From NCBI GenBank assembly GCA_033297075.1, contig MU858202.1:1-64000 (forward strand): 64,000 bases of DNA. Direction: 5' to 3'. Positions 46,395-64,000 of the stretch are shown piece after piece. The notes below the pieces were generated by a model. It saw only the letters and a list, made by a program, of their open reading frames with translations. It was not told where the DNA came from and made no database searches. The stretch is from Rhypophila decipiens (lineage: Eukaryota; Ascomycota; Sordariomycetes; Sordariales; Naviculisporaceae). How positions within the stretch are numbered: the first letter of the stretch is position 1; every line of letters begins with the position of its first letter. The position numbers and the translations under genes were made by a program.

Positions 46395-49125
<2,731 letters not shown>

Positions 49126-56251: not shown

Positions 56252-57961
56252 ATGCGGTTCTTCAACTCCAAGTCAGCAACAACGGCCGGCGATGCTGTCC
56301 CTCCCAATAAGGAGGAGGCCATCGCAGCCCCAGTCCCGACCAATGATGTCGCCGTCTTGGCCAAGGAGCAACAGATTACCATGATGGCTATCTGGCTTGG
56401 TACCGTTGCCAGTGTTGGTGGCTTCATGTTTGGATATGTCAGGTTGGTACTTCACTAACAATACTGCACCTCGGCATGAAACTCACATACTGACCACCTC
56501 GTCCATCTCTATAGCGGTCAGATCTCGGGTTTCTTCGACATGGAAGATTACGCCAGGCGGTTCGGAGATAACTACCAGTTCAGCGCGGCCCGGCAGGGTG
56601 CCATCGTGGGCTTGCTTCCTGCTGGATGTCTCTTCGGCTCCTTGATTGCCGGAAAGATCGCCGATTCCCTAGGCCGTCGTCTATCCATCTCTTTCTCGGC
56701 CCTCTTCTCGTGCATAGGAACCATCATAGAGGTCTCGTCCAACACAGTGTGGGCACAGTTCGCCGTGGGGCGTCTCGTCACTGGCTTTGGTATCGGTGCC
56801 TTGTCTGTCCTCGTCCCCATGTACCAGTCCGAGTCGAGCCCCGTCATCCTCCGCGGCGTGCTCATCTCGTGCTACCAGCTCTTCATCACCCTCGGCATCT
56901 GGCTTGCCGAGATGATCAACTACGGCACTCACAACATGAACGGCACCTCTGCCTCGTGGCGCATTCCCAACGCCATCTCCTTCGCCTGGGCCCTGATTCT
57001 TGGCGGAGGCATTCTATTCCTTCCCGAGTCACCACGTTATGCGTACCGCCAGGGCCGTGAGGACGAAGCTCGCCAGACCATCGCCCGGTTGGCGGGACTG
57101 CCCCTCGACGCGCCATCGGTCAATCTGCAAATCAACGAGATTCGAGAAAAGCTCGAGGAAGAGCGCGCGGGCGCCGAGGCACAGTGGTACGAGATCTTCA
57201 CCGGCCCTCGCATGCTCTACCGTACCTTGCTGGGCATCGTCCTCCAGTCCGGACAGCAACTCACGGGCGCCAACTTCTTCTTCTACTACGGCACGACAAT
57301 CTTCCGCGCGACAGGCCTGTCGGATAGCTACGTCACACAAATTATCTTGGGGTCTGTCAACGTCGGATGTACGTTTGGCGGACTGTGGGTGGTCAAGAAC
57401 TGCGGCCGGAGAAATGCGCTCATGGTCGGCGCTGCCTGGATGATGATGTGTTTTCTGGTGTACTCCTTTGTGGGCCACTTCTCGCTTGATCATACCAACC
57501 CGCAAAATACACCGAGGGCGGGCAACGTCTTGATTGTGTTCTCGTGCTTCTTTATCGTTGCCTTTGCGACGACCTGGGGTCCCCTCGTGTGGACTGTCGT
57601 TGCTGAGCTGTACCCGGCCAGATACCGTGCTCCGGCTATGGCGGTTGCCACGGCTGCGAACTGGTTCTGGAACTTTATGATGAGCTTCTTTACGAGGTTT
57701 ATTACGGACAAGATTGGGTATTTGTATGGCTTGGTTTTTGCCGGCTGTTGTGCGGCCCTGGTGGCGGTTGTTTTCTTCTTCTTGATTGAGAGCAAAGATC
57801 GGTCTTTGGAGGAGATTGATAGTATGTATCTGATGAGGGTCAGTCCGATTCGCAGTGCCAAGTGGGATGCGGCGGAGAAGAGGGATAATGAACGATCCAG
57901 TGAGAGCAGTGCTGCGAGTAGGAGGACTGATTCTAGAGATGGTGAGAAGGGAGAGAAATGA
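56252..57961 (+). CDS. MFS hexose transporter
   Basis: Exons 56252-56442 and 56515-57961 encode 545 residues. Members of this sugar-porter family take up glucose and related hexoses by facilitated diffusion or proton symport. Twelve membrane segments are visible. Signatures in order are GFMFGYVSGQISGF at the end of TM1 (the intron splits the Ser codon), GKIADSLGRR after TM2, GRLVTGFGIGALSVLVPMYQ with the following SESSP, and PESPRYAYRQGR at the centre. Then come the TM7 QSGQQLTGANFFFYYG, important for sugar recognition in this family, and the TM10-11 VAELYPARYRAPAMAVATAA with NWFWNF. The C-terminus carries ESKDRSLEEIDSMY and a Ser/Arg/Glu tail. Substrate and affinity cannot be read from sequence. 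Confidence 0.93.
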
Positions 57962-58265
57962 GCGAGTGGCGATGGTGTTGGTGTTGGGTTCATTGTTTAG
58001 TTGGATATATCATCATGGCGTTACTTTACGTCTGCATACCAGGTAGTTTGCAGTGGTTACATGCATGGGCGGGAGTTTTTTTCATACGCTGAATTGGTTC
58101 TATCAATGGTAGATAGTATAATGAAGAACTGAAGAGTTTAAACGTGCAAGATCCAAACACCAGATAGCTACCTACCTCCCTATCCTAACTCGGAGACCAA
58201 AGAACAAGATGGCACACAGACAAGGCAAACTCCACGAATTCACCCATATGTAGGTAGTTACAAGT
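57962..58265. other. convergent 3' region sugar transporter-rvt
   Basis: Only 304 bases separate the stop codons of two converging genes. Short and AT-richer, with no other feature seen. Confidence 0.5.
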
Positions 58266-60105
58266 CTACAACATCATCTGCCAAGTAACCTTCTTCTGGC
58301 GCATCATACTCAACACGCCCCCAGGAAGGAACTGCTTATCGACTAGACTCAAAGCCCCATATGCCTCGAGCAGTTCCTCGGCATAAAGCGCAACAAACCA
58401 TTTATTTTCCGGCGTCAATGGAGGAGCATTTTTACCTCCTGACGTTGCTTTGCGGAACCCCCCGTTGCGGGAAGAATATCCGCCTCTGCCGCCGCGCCCG
58501 CGATAGTGACCGCGTCGTCGAATGTGGGAAGACCTCTCGGGGTGGACGCCGGATGAGGAAGATAGTGCGTCGTCCAGAGCATCCAGGGTGCGTTTGTCGA
58601 GGGCTATACTCTTCCCCTGGGGCGTGGAGAGGAGCGTGTCAGTGTAGATGTTTCTCAGGTTGAGGCTGAAGCGCTCCCTGAAGCGGGCGAATTCGAGGGG
58701 GGAAAAGAATTTGTGCGCTTCGCGGGGGCGGATTATGGGGTTTGTTGTTGTTGTTGTTGTCTCTTTACTGGTCGTTGCTGATGGTGTTGGCGCGGAGCAG
58801 TTTCGGTCGTCGGACTGACCAGAGGAGGAGGAGCTACCACCGTTGGAGGCGGTATCAGACTCGTCATCGTCCTCGGAATCAGACTCGGACTCAGACTCAG
58901 ACTCATCTGGCATTATATCGCGGAGCCGGGAACGGAGCTTCCAGGAGTGTGTTTCGTCGAATAGGTTTTTATAGTTGAGGTATTCGGCGTGCTCGTCGGC
59001 CAGGTATTTCTCGAGGATCTTGTCGGGGGAATCGCTTAGTTGGTCCCGCACGAGGAGGAGCGGCACAAAGGGGTTGCGTAGGCCCAGGCCGCCTAGTGTT
59101 TCGGGGAGGTGGACGAATGCGTCGGGTATGGTGGCTGATTCGTCGGGCAGGTCTAGGTGCGAGCTGATCATGGATTTTACGTGGGCTGTTACGTTCCCGT
59201 TTGCTGGGGGAGGGAGCAGGCGGTTGAGCATGCGCGAGTAGGTGTCTAGCATGGCGTCGACGTGCTCTACGCCGAGGCAATGTGCTGGCTCACCGAGGAC
59301 GTTGGTGAAGAAGCGGCCTATGCAGCTGTTCCAGGTTTGGACCCAGGCTAGCACGCTCTTGCATTCGCCGAGCTGTTTCTCCAGCTGGTCCAGGTGGGCG
59401 GATACCCGGCCTTGGTCGATTTGCCATTTCCCCGAGGCGCTATCTAGGACGAGGAAGCCGACTGATACTGTGCCTGCGGGGAGGCGCTGCATGATCTGGG
59501 AGTCATCTTCGGCGTCGGGGGAGATGGTTGAGTTGCCTGGCAGGTAGACAAACCCTGTCTTGCTCCTGTTAAACTCTAGGCCGAAAATCTTGCCATAATC
59601 TTGCATGCAAGCCCAGGCGCGAGCAGCCGTCTCGGGCTCGCCGCACAGCCAGATATCGTCGTGGATTCGATACAGCAAGACCCCAGTCTGCCGGTGAACC
59701 GCCAGATCCATGCAGAAGAGAAGCATCTCACCGATCAGCTTCTCCGAGGCATGAGCCATGGGGACGCCTCGCTTTCTCGTGCGCGGTCCATGCTGGGGAC
59801 GGTCGTCGGATGCCATGTCTAGGTTGAGCGGCGCCTCGAGATACTTCCGGAAGAAGTCGATCCACTCCTCCTGGAAACCAAAGTAGCGCATCACGGCGAA
59901 GGCTGTGCTGTGCGGGATACTTGTCCCGAACCACTGGATATCTGTCTGGATCAGAGCAACTGGTCCACGGGCGTCCTTTGGTGACTGGTGAGTTACGCCC
60001 CGGAGGCGGTGGATGAACATCTCGGCGGTCAATTGGCGTAGCAGCTGCTGGCGAATGTTGGTTTTCTGTTTTGGCAGTTTGACTTCGCGAGAGTATGCCC
60101 AGTCA

Positions 60106-60141
<36 letters not shown>

Positions 60142-61298
60142 GTCTCGTCCATCTCATTGTCGTACTGCTGCCCGCCTTCAAACAGAGAGGTCTCACTACT
60201 CGGCAGCGACGAGAGAAAGAATGTCTCCAGATAGTTCATCGCCCGCTCCGGTTCCACACCTTGACCCTCTACCCAGTGCTGGTCCAGGTAATACCGCCGC
60301 CGATGGCGATCCCTCGCCGATGGGAACGCATGACCATCCATATCTCTCGTCCACACCTTCTCCATAAACTGCTTGAGGAGGGATTTCATGATGGTGCTCA
60401 GCTTGACGCCAATATACTGCACAAAGATCATCTGCAGGATGTCGTCGTCGGCCCAGATGCGATACTTGCCGTTCAGCCCGGCCCGGGGCATCACGGGGAT
60501 ACCCTGCTCGCCGGCGTTCCACTGCCACCGCTTGAGGTCGGCGAAGCGCATGTTGAGCACGTCGGCGATCTCGTCCTTGGCCACCTCACTCTCGAGAAAG
60601 TTCTGCAGGATGGCGCGCTTCTCGTCGCTCACCAGGTCCTCGGTCAGGAGCCCCTTGATGCAGCTGGTGAGCGAGGCCTGGTTGAAGGGGCAGGTCTCGT
60701 TCATCAGCGAAGCCGTCTGGTTCGAAACACGGTCCCGTAGTTGTTGCAGGGTTGCCTGGCTTTTCTCATCGGGGAATAACCCGTCGAGGAAGCCGCGGAT
60801 CTCATGCTCGCTTGTCTCGAGCGGCTCGAACACGACAGACTCGAACTTGTTCACCAGGTCTTTGAGTCGCTGGCGCTGGCTCTCTGCCACGGGGTGCGAG
60901 CTCGTCTCTGGGGCTGCCTGTTCCATCCACTCAGTGAGGAGGCGGGAGTACAGATGTGCCATGTCCAACCTGCGGCTCTGCACGTCGAGTTTGGAGTGCA
61001 GCTGGCGGTCAAAGTTGGCCAGCTTCGACTCGGGAATCGAGGCGTCGTACTTGGACTGTGCCAGCCATCTCTCTATGTTGTCCAGAGAGTGATCGGCCAA
61101 GGCATTGGGGCTGGCCAGCTCCCGGCAACCGTCCAGGAGGCTACCCAGGCGATCCCTGCGGTCCGGGGAGCCATGTGCCTTGTTGATGAAGGCTTGTTTG
61201 CGAGCTTCGTACGAGTTTCGACGGGAGTCCAGCTCTCGGATCTTGGACAGGCTGATGCTTTGTAGGGTCCTAGATAGGACTGACATTGGCGAAGACAT
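58266..61298 (-). CDS. rvt: rvt, cellular (domesticated) reverse-transcriptase-related protein
   Basis: Single exon, 1010 residues. The frame extends upstream only through non-ATG codons, so the start is ATG 61298; Met5 is an alternative. The long helical N-terminus (SKIRELDSRRNSYEARKQAF, KLDVQSRRLDMAHLYSRLLT) is followed by a polymerase core with the RT motifs in order. Motif A is ALIQTDIQWFG (Asp453), motif B is KRGVPMAHASEK (about 509-520), and motif C is YRIHDDIWL with Asp547-Asp548. Motif D is FGLEFNRSKTGFVYLPG and motif E is VSVGFLVLD. The three catalytic Asp are intact. An insert before motif A holds 13 Asp (387-399). The C-terminus has Ser/Glu/Asp and Thr runs, an RGRGGRGG patch (about 935-955), and ends in a conserved-looking helical block. 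It lacks endonuclease, RNase H, gag or terminal repeats. This matches rvt genes, single-copy host genes of fungi and some other lineages known to polymerise nucleotides but not to transpose; their role is unresolved. Confidence 0.9.

Positions 61299-64000
<2,702 letters not shown>

Follow-up and report, generated by a model that had tools for sequence, protein, structure and literature searches.

A reverse transcriptase gene of Rhypophila decipiens in a three-clade family of fungal RVT proteins, with histone-tail-like segments in one clade

The window gene and known reverse transcriptases

RVT proteins, the products of rvt genes, are cellular reverse transcriptases (RTs) of the class of Gladyshev and Arkhipova, with RVT of Neurospora crassa among them, and are described as having a large loop 2a and as being present in bacteria and eukaryotes (PMC5718144). 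The rvt gene is reported to be usually single-copy, and its products to carry out untemplated polymerisation and to require intact catalytic residues for stress relief (PMC10680173); the published account of N. crassa RVT gives terminal transferase activity, dispensability for growth, and strong induction upon inhibition of protein synthesis (PMC3520738). Two similar labels are, as used in their sources, unrelated to rvt: the "RVT" genes of PMC4920403 are transposon RTs, and the usage in PMC11943222 is a LINE label. Here, we analysed 64,000 nucleotides of the Sordariales fungus Rhypophila decipiens (contig MU858202.1, positions 1 to 64,000; this whole stretch is hereafter the window), in which a frame at 58266-61298 (minus strand; the window gene) had been predicted to be an intact, single-copy, host-owned rvt gene.

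Judged from its sequence, the window gene is an intact, host-owned fungal rvt gene, a real gene of a known kind, and its product is probably functional. Like other cellular RVTs, this product is a long fungal protein encoded without introns, with a palm of the D + DD type, a large loop 2a before motif A, and no mobile-element parts found. The frame runs uninterrupted through 1010 codons and a stop, with no intron and no internal stops, as the original prediction had it; the chance of 1010 open codons, computed from the base composition of the gene, is about 1e-15, and the guanine-plus-cytosine fractions at the three codon positions (0.60/0.42/0.73) give a coding pattern. The palm residues were likewise found at their predicted places, with Asp453 in motif A and His546-Asp547-Asp548 in motif C. 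The PADLOC profile RT_UG37 matches residues 11-745 (E 4.7e-54), taking in the N-terminal region and the RT core together, and it matches 48/48 members of alignment A3. Homologues of the window protein at E <=0.001 numbered 317, and the best solved relative of the family profile was DRT9 (9ioa/9nlx, E 4e-7); an NCBIfam search of the window protein gave no match, and a search of solved structures with the single sequence gave three matches, all at E of at least 0.83 and to acidic or Arg-Gly stretches only.

RT_UG37, which PADLOC files under DRT and which we take to have been built from bacterial sequences, likens the window protein to the bacterial UG37 RTs. Unlike these, the window gene is eukaryotic and has no defence context, and the match ends at residue 745 of 1010 (profile position 657/778); our literature search found no paper on UG37 function. 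From DRT9, AbiK, and AbiA, the protein-primed UG/Abi enzymes, the window protein differs in that identity is 13%, and the RVTs considered here are known without a demonstrated non-coding RNA partner or priming tyrosine.

Three paralogous clades and their active sites

A genome search with the window protein recovered three full-length rvt loci, namely the window gene, a paralogue on contig C4 (37% identity over residues 5-790), and one on contig C40 (36-38%). With three paralogues in this one genome versus the usual single copy, the predicted copy number was wrong, whereas the predicted anatomy and class stood; we do not take single-copy status as defining the RVT protein family, copy number being a property of the genome. 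A further weak match on contig C318 (E 0.003) covers residues 339-401, the location of the poly-Asp run. QBC37DRAFT_409892 of R. decipiens has the same sequence as the C4 paralogue (100% identity). Relative to the usual start (MTSSRYITRALPRL...), this paralogue is extended at the N terminus by about 50 residues, possibly a mitochondrial presequence or a mis-chosen start, and a single full TGAGTCA site lies 69 bases upstream of its first ATG.

Protein searches contributed the best 120 of 317 matches for the window protein, and likewise from 485 and 300 matches for the paralogues, from which clade sizes of 120-121 follow. The midpoint-rooted tree of 362 proteins (P0001-P0361 plus the C40 protein; P0001 is the window protein) contains three clades, W, N, and H, with supports of 0.99-1.0 and with H sister to N. 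Clade W, formed by the window protein and 120 others, keeps Asp453, Asp547, and Asp548 in 121/121 members, and clade N, which holds the C4 paralogue and Neurospora tetrasperma P0285, keeps all three in 119/120, P0272 having an alignment gap at motif C. The motif A Asp is present in 0/121 members of clade H, to which the C40 paralogue belongs; Val stands there in 95, and Asn replaces the second motif C Asp in 32/121. Some family members, whose database models also bear names or Pfam accessions of other domains, may be gene-model fusions, including the H proteins P0229 (named for a GST N-terminal domain), P0239, and P0235 (PF07859) and the N protein P0304 (named for a protein kinase domain).

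Within clade W, the window protein falls in a subclade of 42 (support 1.0) with Sordariales bearing the names Podospora, Chaetomium, and Diplogelasinospora, and its nearest neighbour in the tree, among the matches listed, is Diplogelasinospora (support 0.72). Members of W and N co-occur in Chaetomium olivicolor and Parathielavia appendiculata, again among the matches listed. RVT of N. crassa itself was not among these matches; the N. tetrasperma protein P0285 shares 34% identity with the window protein in alignment A3. Unlike the Neurospora protein, which sits in clade N, the window protein is a member of clade W and carries C-terminal Arg-Gly and acidic insertions.

The active site of W and N members also differs from that of group II intron RTs, where motif A reads Asp-x-x-x-x-Phe and the Phe acts as a steric gate against ribonucleotides. 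The family profile aligns without gaps to a group II intron RT at motif A, and the Phe of that RT falls at Asp+5 (position 458 of the window protein), which is Ala, Gly, or Ser in 120/120 W proteins and Gly in 119/119 N proteins with a letter there. This small residue predicts ribonucleotide use in both clades and fits the preference for nucleoside triphosphates (NTPs) that a 2011 abstract reportedly gives for RVT; for the window protein, ribonucleotide use is the main mechanistic point that we infer from the alignment.

Histone-tail mimicry in clade H

Histone mimicry is known from viral NS1 tails and EZHIP, where a protein that is not a histone carries a short H3-like segment within a disordered stretch. 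Clade H is similar in that its H3-like segment lies in a disordered stretch, and its Lys-to-Met replacements recall EZHIP-like inhibitors. Unlike NS1 and EZHIP, its mimic extends to as many as 31 exact H3 residues, is sometimes joined to an H4 mimic, and is located inside a polymerase-fold protein. On alignment evidence, clade H is a new group of RVTs without the motif A Asp, most of whose listed members (87/121) have H3 or H4 mimicry, and in both features it departs from the cellular RVTs described so far.

The mimic lies in loop 2a, whose median length is 124 residues in H versus 66 in W and 59.5 in N. In the C40 paralogue, this loop agrees with the H3 tail encoded in the window at 29/39 compared residues, and slightly further on it contains GGVKRHRRIL, which resembles the H4 basic patch; the reference H3 gene is the longest of seven PF00125 matches in the genome. 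Local alignment scores above the maxima that reversed tails reach in clade H loops (thresholds of 54 and 49) identified an H3-tail mimic in 67/121 H loops and an H4-tail mimic in 40/121, with either in 87 and both in 20. The H loops scoring above every shuffle numbered 70/121 or 75/121 for H3, depending on the shuffles, and 47/121 for H4, and 0/241 W and N loops exceeded the 99.9th percentile of shuffled loops. In the model of one carrier, P0125, the mimic (427-457) falls within a disordered stretch, residues 418-495. Carriers of the H3 mimic include Naviculisporaceae, Apodospora, Fusarium, Ilyonectria, Clonostachys, Bisporella (Leotiomycetes), and Lepidopterella (Dothideomycetes), and thus represent three fungal classes including Sordariomycetes.

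It might be argued that the histone-like stretch owes its resemblance to composition only, being a basic segment for nuclear localisation or nucleic-acid binding, which we consider unlikely, if deserving of careful weighing. Clade H loops are indeed rich in basic and acidic runs, the reversed H3 tail itself scores up to 54 in them, and in carriers of the H3 mimic conservation is higher at Arg8, Arg17, and Arg26 than at Lys9, Lys14, Lys18, and Lys27. Exact words argue otherwise: those of at least 8 residues shared with the H3 tail occur in 55/121 H loops and those shared with H4 in 12/121, versus 0/241 W and N loops in either comparison, and an 8-residue H3 word occurs in 0/7240 shuffled loops, one of which reaches 6. 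Tails of H2A and H2B gave nothing against the loops of any of the three clades. In addition, parsimony on the tree places the H3 mimic as the root state of clade H and the H4 mimic as derived, with 25 changes for H3 alone versus 39.9 with shuffled labels, and 19 versus 33.8 for H4.

The pattern of conservation within the mimic bears on its possible use. Among the H3 mimics, the arginines are kept at R17 in 64/67 and at R26 in 59/63, and the lysines at K9 in 27/49, at K18 in 25/64, and at K27 in 38/63, which weakens the idea that the mimic acts mainly as a lysine methylation substrate. Replacement of histone lysines by Arg, Met, or Gln is known to mimic or block modification. The 174 replacements at H3-mimic lysines comprise 72 Arg, 33 Met, and 26 Gln, and the 107 at H4-mimic lysines comprise 43 Arg, 29 Met, and 11 Gln, with H4 Lys16 changed to Met in 26/40 H4 mimics. 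Such substitutions would be apt for a protein that inhibits histone-modifying enzymes or acts as their decoy, a reading that we hold loosely because the Met content of clade H loops is raised overall (3.7% versus 1.0-1.4%). No report of a histone-RVT link was found among open-licence PMC papers, the literature covered.

More tentatively, and with slightly less than even confidence, we hypothesize that clade H, having lost its canonical catalytic centre, turned into a chromatin-facing partner of the active RVTs, with a disordered loop 2a that imitates H3 and often the H4 basic patch. A histone methyltransferase or acetyltransferase, a remodeller, or a chaperone may be what such a protein recruits or competes for, and multimerisation may couple RVT polymer synthesis to chromatin state.

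Likely mechanism, alternatives, and meaning

The explanation that we favour for the whole, and regard as fairly probable, combines a catalytically intact window RVT that works like the studied RVTs and the Abi/DRT enzymes, a family of three clades, and a histone mimic in clade H. Abi and DRT9 enzymes are described as priming on their own tyrosines, with DRT9 as a protein-primed producer of homopolymers (PMC12483538), and class 1 UG/Abi RTs as performing template-free, protein-primed DNA synthesis (PMC13275509). We extend these properties, and those published for RVT, to the window gene by homology. Its product would most likely be a multimeric right-hand polymerase on the pattern of these RVT and bacterial Abi/DRT enzymes, with polymerising activity and a role under stress both expected from such relatives. 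It would add nucleotides without an external template, would probably be primed by the protein itself, and, with Gly in place of the bulky steric-gate residue, would accept ribonucleotides. In clade H, the motif A Asp has been lost and loop 2a turned into a tail mimic of H3, and in many species also of H4; the likeliest partner of this mimic is a protein that binds or modifies histone tails.

Several observations weigh against this explanation. The Pfam RVT_1 profile, proposed at the outset as a check, gives the window protein 15 bits against a cut-off of 29.6, and it is the RT_UG37 match that bears out the class instead. In the fold comparison, R2 and LINE-1 rank above the DRT enzymes. No bacterial locus was found in genome-contig scans or in tblastn of plasmids with the C4 protein, and no relatives were found among viral contigs, so that it is the PADLOC profile that carries the bacterial link. 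Two residues beyond the position of the lost Asp, 105/121 H proteins carry Glu or Asp, versus 0/121 in W and 3/120 in N, where this position is mostly Gln, Lys, or Arg; a moved metal ligand is therefore possible, and we have dropped the label "catalytically dead" in favour of "motif A Asp lost". Taken as one state, "either mimic" shows 26 changes over the tree versus a shuffled mean of 29.9 (minimum 23), which amounts to little tree signal and suggests that gain, loss, or blurring was frequent. Among the matches listed, no protein is more than 53% identical over the full window protein, with up to 60% over part, although two R. decipiens database records match the C4 paralogue; the window gene may thus be patchily distributed, or its record absent. 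Finally, the other 16 proteins in alignment A1 either lack the poly-Asp, acidic-Ser, and Arg-Gly insertions of the window protein or have far shorter ones, which might reflect drift.

The distant nearest relative and the low-complexity insertions would also be expected if the window copy were a decaying duplicate whose role has been lost and whose constraint has relaxed, as would its deviation at 3 of the 95 near-invariant clade W columns, which ranks it 10th among 111 W proteins (ten of the 121, shorter than 800 residues, were left out), the median protein deviating at none. We nevertheless consider decay improbable, with 1010 codons open, all three catalytic Asp residues and 92/95 near-invariant columns kept, and a branch that is the fifth longest of 42 in the W subclade, long but within the range of the clade.

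Still another possibility, that the window gene represents a non-long-terminal-repeat (non-LTR) RT of the R2 or LINE kind, either domesticated or relict, and not a separate class, appears very improbable. A shared fold does not decide the matter, and the features expected of non-LTR elements, an endonuclease domain and many similar copies, were not found for the window gene: the three rvt loci are divergent rather than many alike, and identity is 11%. The proposed absence of mobile-element parts also held, in that a Pfam scan (E up to 10) of the window protein found no endonuclease, RNase H, integrase, or gag domains, and no direct or inverted repeats of at least 20 bases were found in 57700-62000 except the GTC run encoding poly-Asp, shorter target-site duplications not having been searched. 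Unlike R2, LINE-1 ORF2, and group II intron RTs, RVT has lost the steric gate, and the long RT_UG37 match likewise speaks against a non-LTR origin. The rvt profile also stands apart from the retroelements of the same genome, scoring -2.1 bits or less to open reading frames from eight retroelement RT loci versus 1063-1202 bits to the three rvt loci. The genome holds 14 other RVT_1 matches, none of them an rvt locus and two with an internal stop, as retroelements would show.

That the histone-like stretch of the C40 paralogue is an assembly artefact or a recent H3 gene capture can practically be dismissed: a canonical H3 gene and an rvt gene do lie 11.4 kb apart in the window, but the mimic occurs in proteins of many genera and assemblies, the C40 frame is open through the stretch, and the same codon is used at only 11/29 shared residues versus 12.0 expected from codon usage, a chance level on which we reject recent capture and which points to an old match maintained as protein. 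The 11.4 kb is measured to the nearer end of the window gene, the distance to its start codon being 14.4 kb, and the linkage is probably chance.

Features of the window protein, of its locus, and of the two paralogues are collected in Table 1. The 79-residue loop 2a of the window protein is an insert, partly disordered, between the fingers hairpin (residues 267-283) and motif A (447-456); motif 2 was assigned by us from the AlphaFold2 model. The acidic-Ser and Arg-Gly insertions together span 58434-58907 (minus strand) in the C-terminal part, and the insertion holding the Arg-Gly stretch is absent from the 16 other A1 proteins. Across clade W, an acidic run of at least 8 occurs in 14/121 and two or more RGG/RGR motifs in 3/121; the clade N proteins P0260, P0337, P0340, and P0344 have three or more such motifs each. 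The predicted neighbours were confirmed by Pfam matches, with a Sugar_tr/MFS transporter (56540-57961, plus strand) convergent and downstream of the window gene, and AROM (from 62633, plus strand) divergent and upstream, of which the window holds the 5' part only (3-dehydroquinate synthase and the start of EPSP synthase). TGACTC occurs once in the intergenic region between rvt and AROM versus 0.64 expected, which is not significant as a starvation element. The rvt gene has been reported to respond to amino-acid starvation, and joint control with AROM through this 1.3-kb region is a candidate idea.

Table 1. Positions of features of the window gene, its locus, and the rvt paralogues (window coordinates unless a contig is given)
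Feature	Position	Strand	Remark
N-terminal all-helical region, residues 1-265, before the fingers hairpin	60504..61298	-	AlphaFold2 model, predicted local distance difference test (pLDDT) mostly >90
Loop 2a insertion, residues 338-416, middle disordered	60051..60287	-	pLDDT <50 at 381-399 and 401-404
13 consecutive Asp inside loop 2a	60102-60140	-	
RT motif A, VALIQTDIQW	59931..59960	-	catalytic Asp453 at 59940-59942
Gly458, steric-gate position (Asp+5), just after motif A		-	profile alignment to group II intron RT
RT motif B region, RKRGVPMAH	59751..59777	-	Arg508 in 361/362 and Gly511 in 362/362 family proteins
RT motif C, LLYRIHDD (Asp547, Asp548)	59655..59678	-	
Acidic Ser-rich C-terminal insertion, residues 798-813	58860..58907	-	
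Arg-Gly-rich stretch, residues 927-940	58479..58520	-	pLDDT <50 at 919-955
Divergent intergenic region, rvt (-) / AROM (+)	61299..62632		1334 bp
Canonical histone H3 gene, first open frame, 3' end probably spliced	46464-46874	-	reference for the C40 mimic
N-type RVT paralogue	contig C4, L016:2383-5229	-	
H-type RVT paralogue, motif A Asp lost, motif C LeuAspAsp	contig C40, L017:4059-7067	-	H3-tail mimic then H4-like basic patch (residues 426-473)

Overall, the question of what RVT proteins do in the cell becomes testable in a system of three paralogues, two intact and one that combines a histone tail with loss of the motif A Asp: the mimic points to chromatin and narrows the candidate partners to a few, and the lost Asp provides a built-in comparison. 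The steric-gate residue allows ribonucleotide use to be predicted from sequence, and the long UG37 profile match would tie a eukaryotic cellular gene to the protein-primed bacterial defence RTs. A mimic of the H3 and H4 tails in a non-histone protein across three fungal classes would surprise chromatin biologists, and its presence in clade H hints at an unexpected link between RVT and chromatin.

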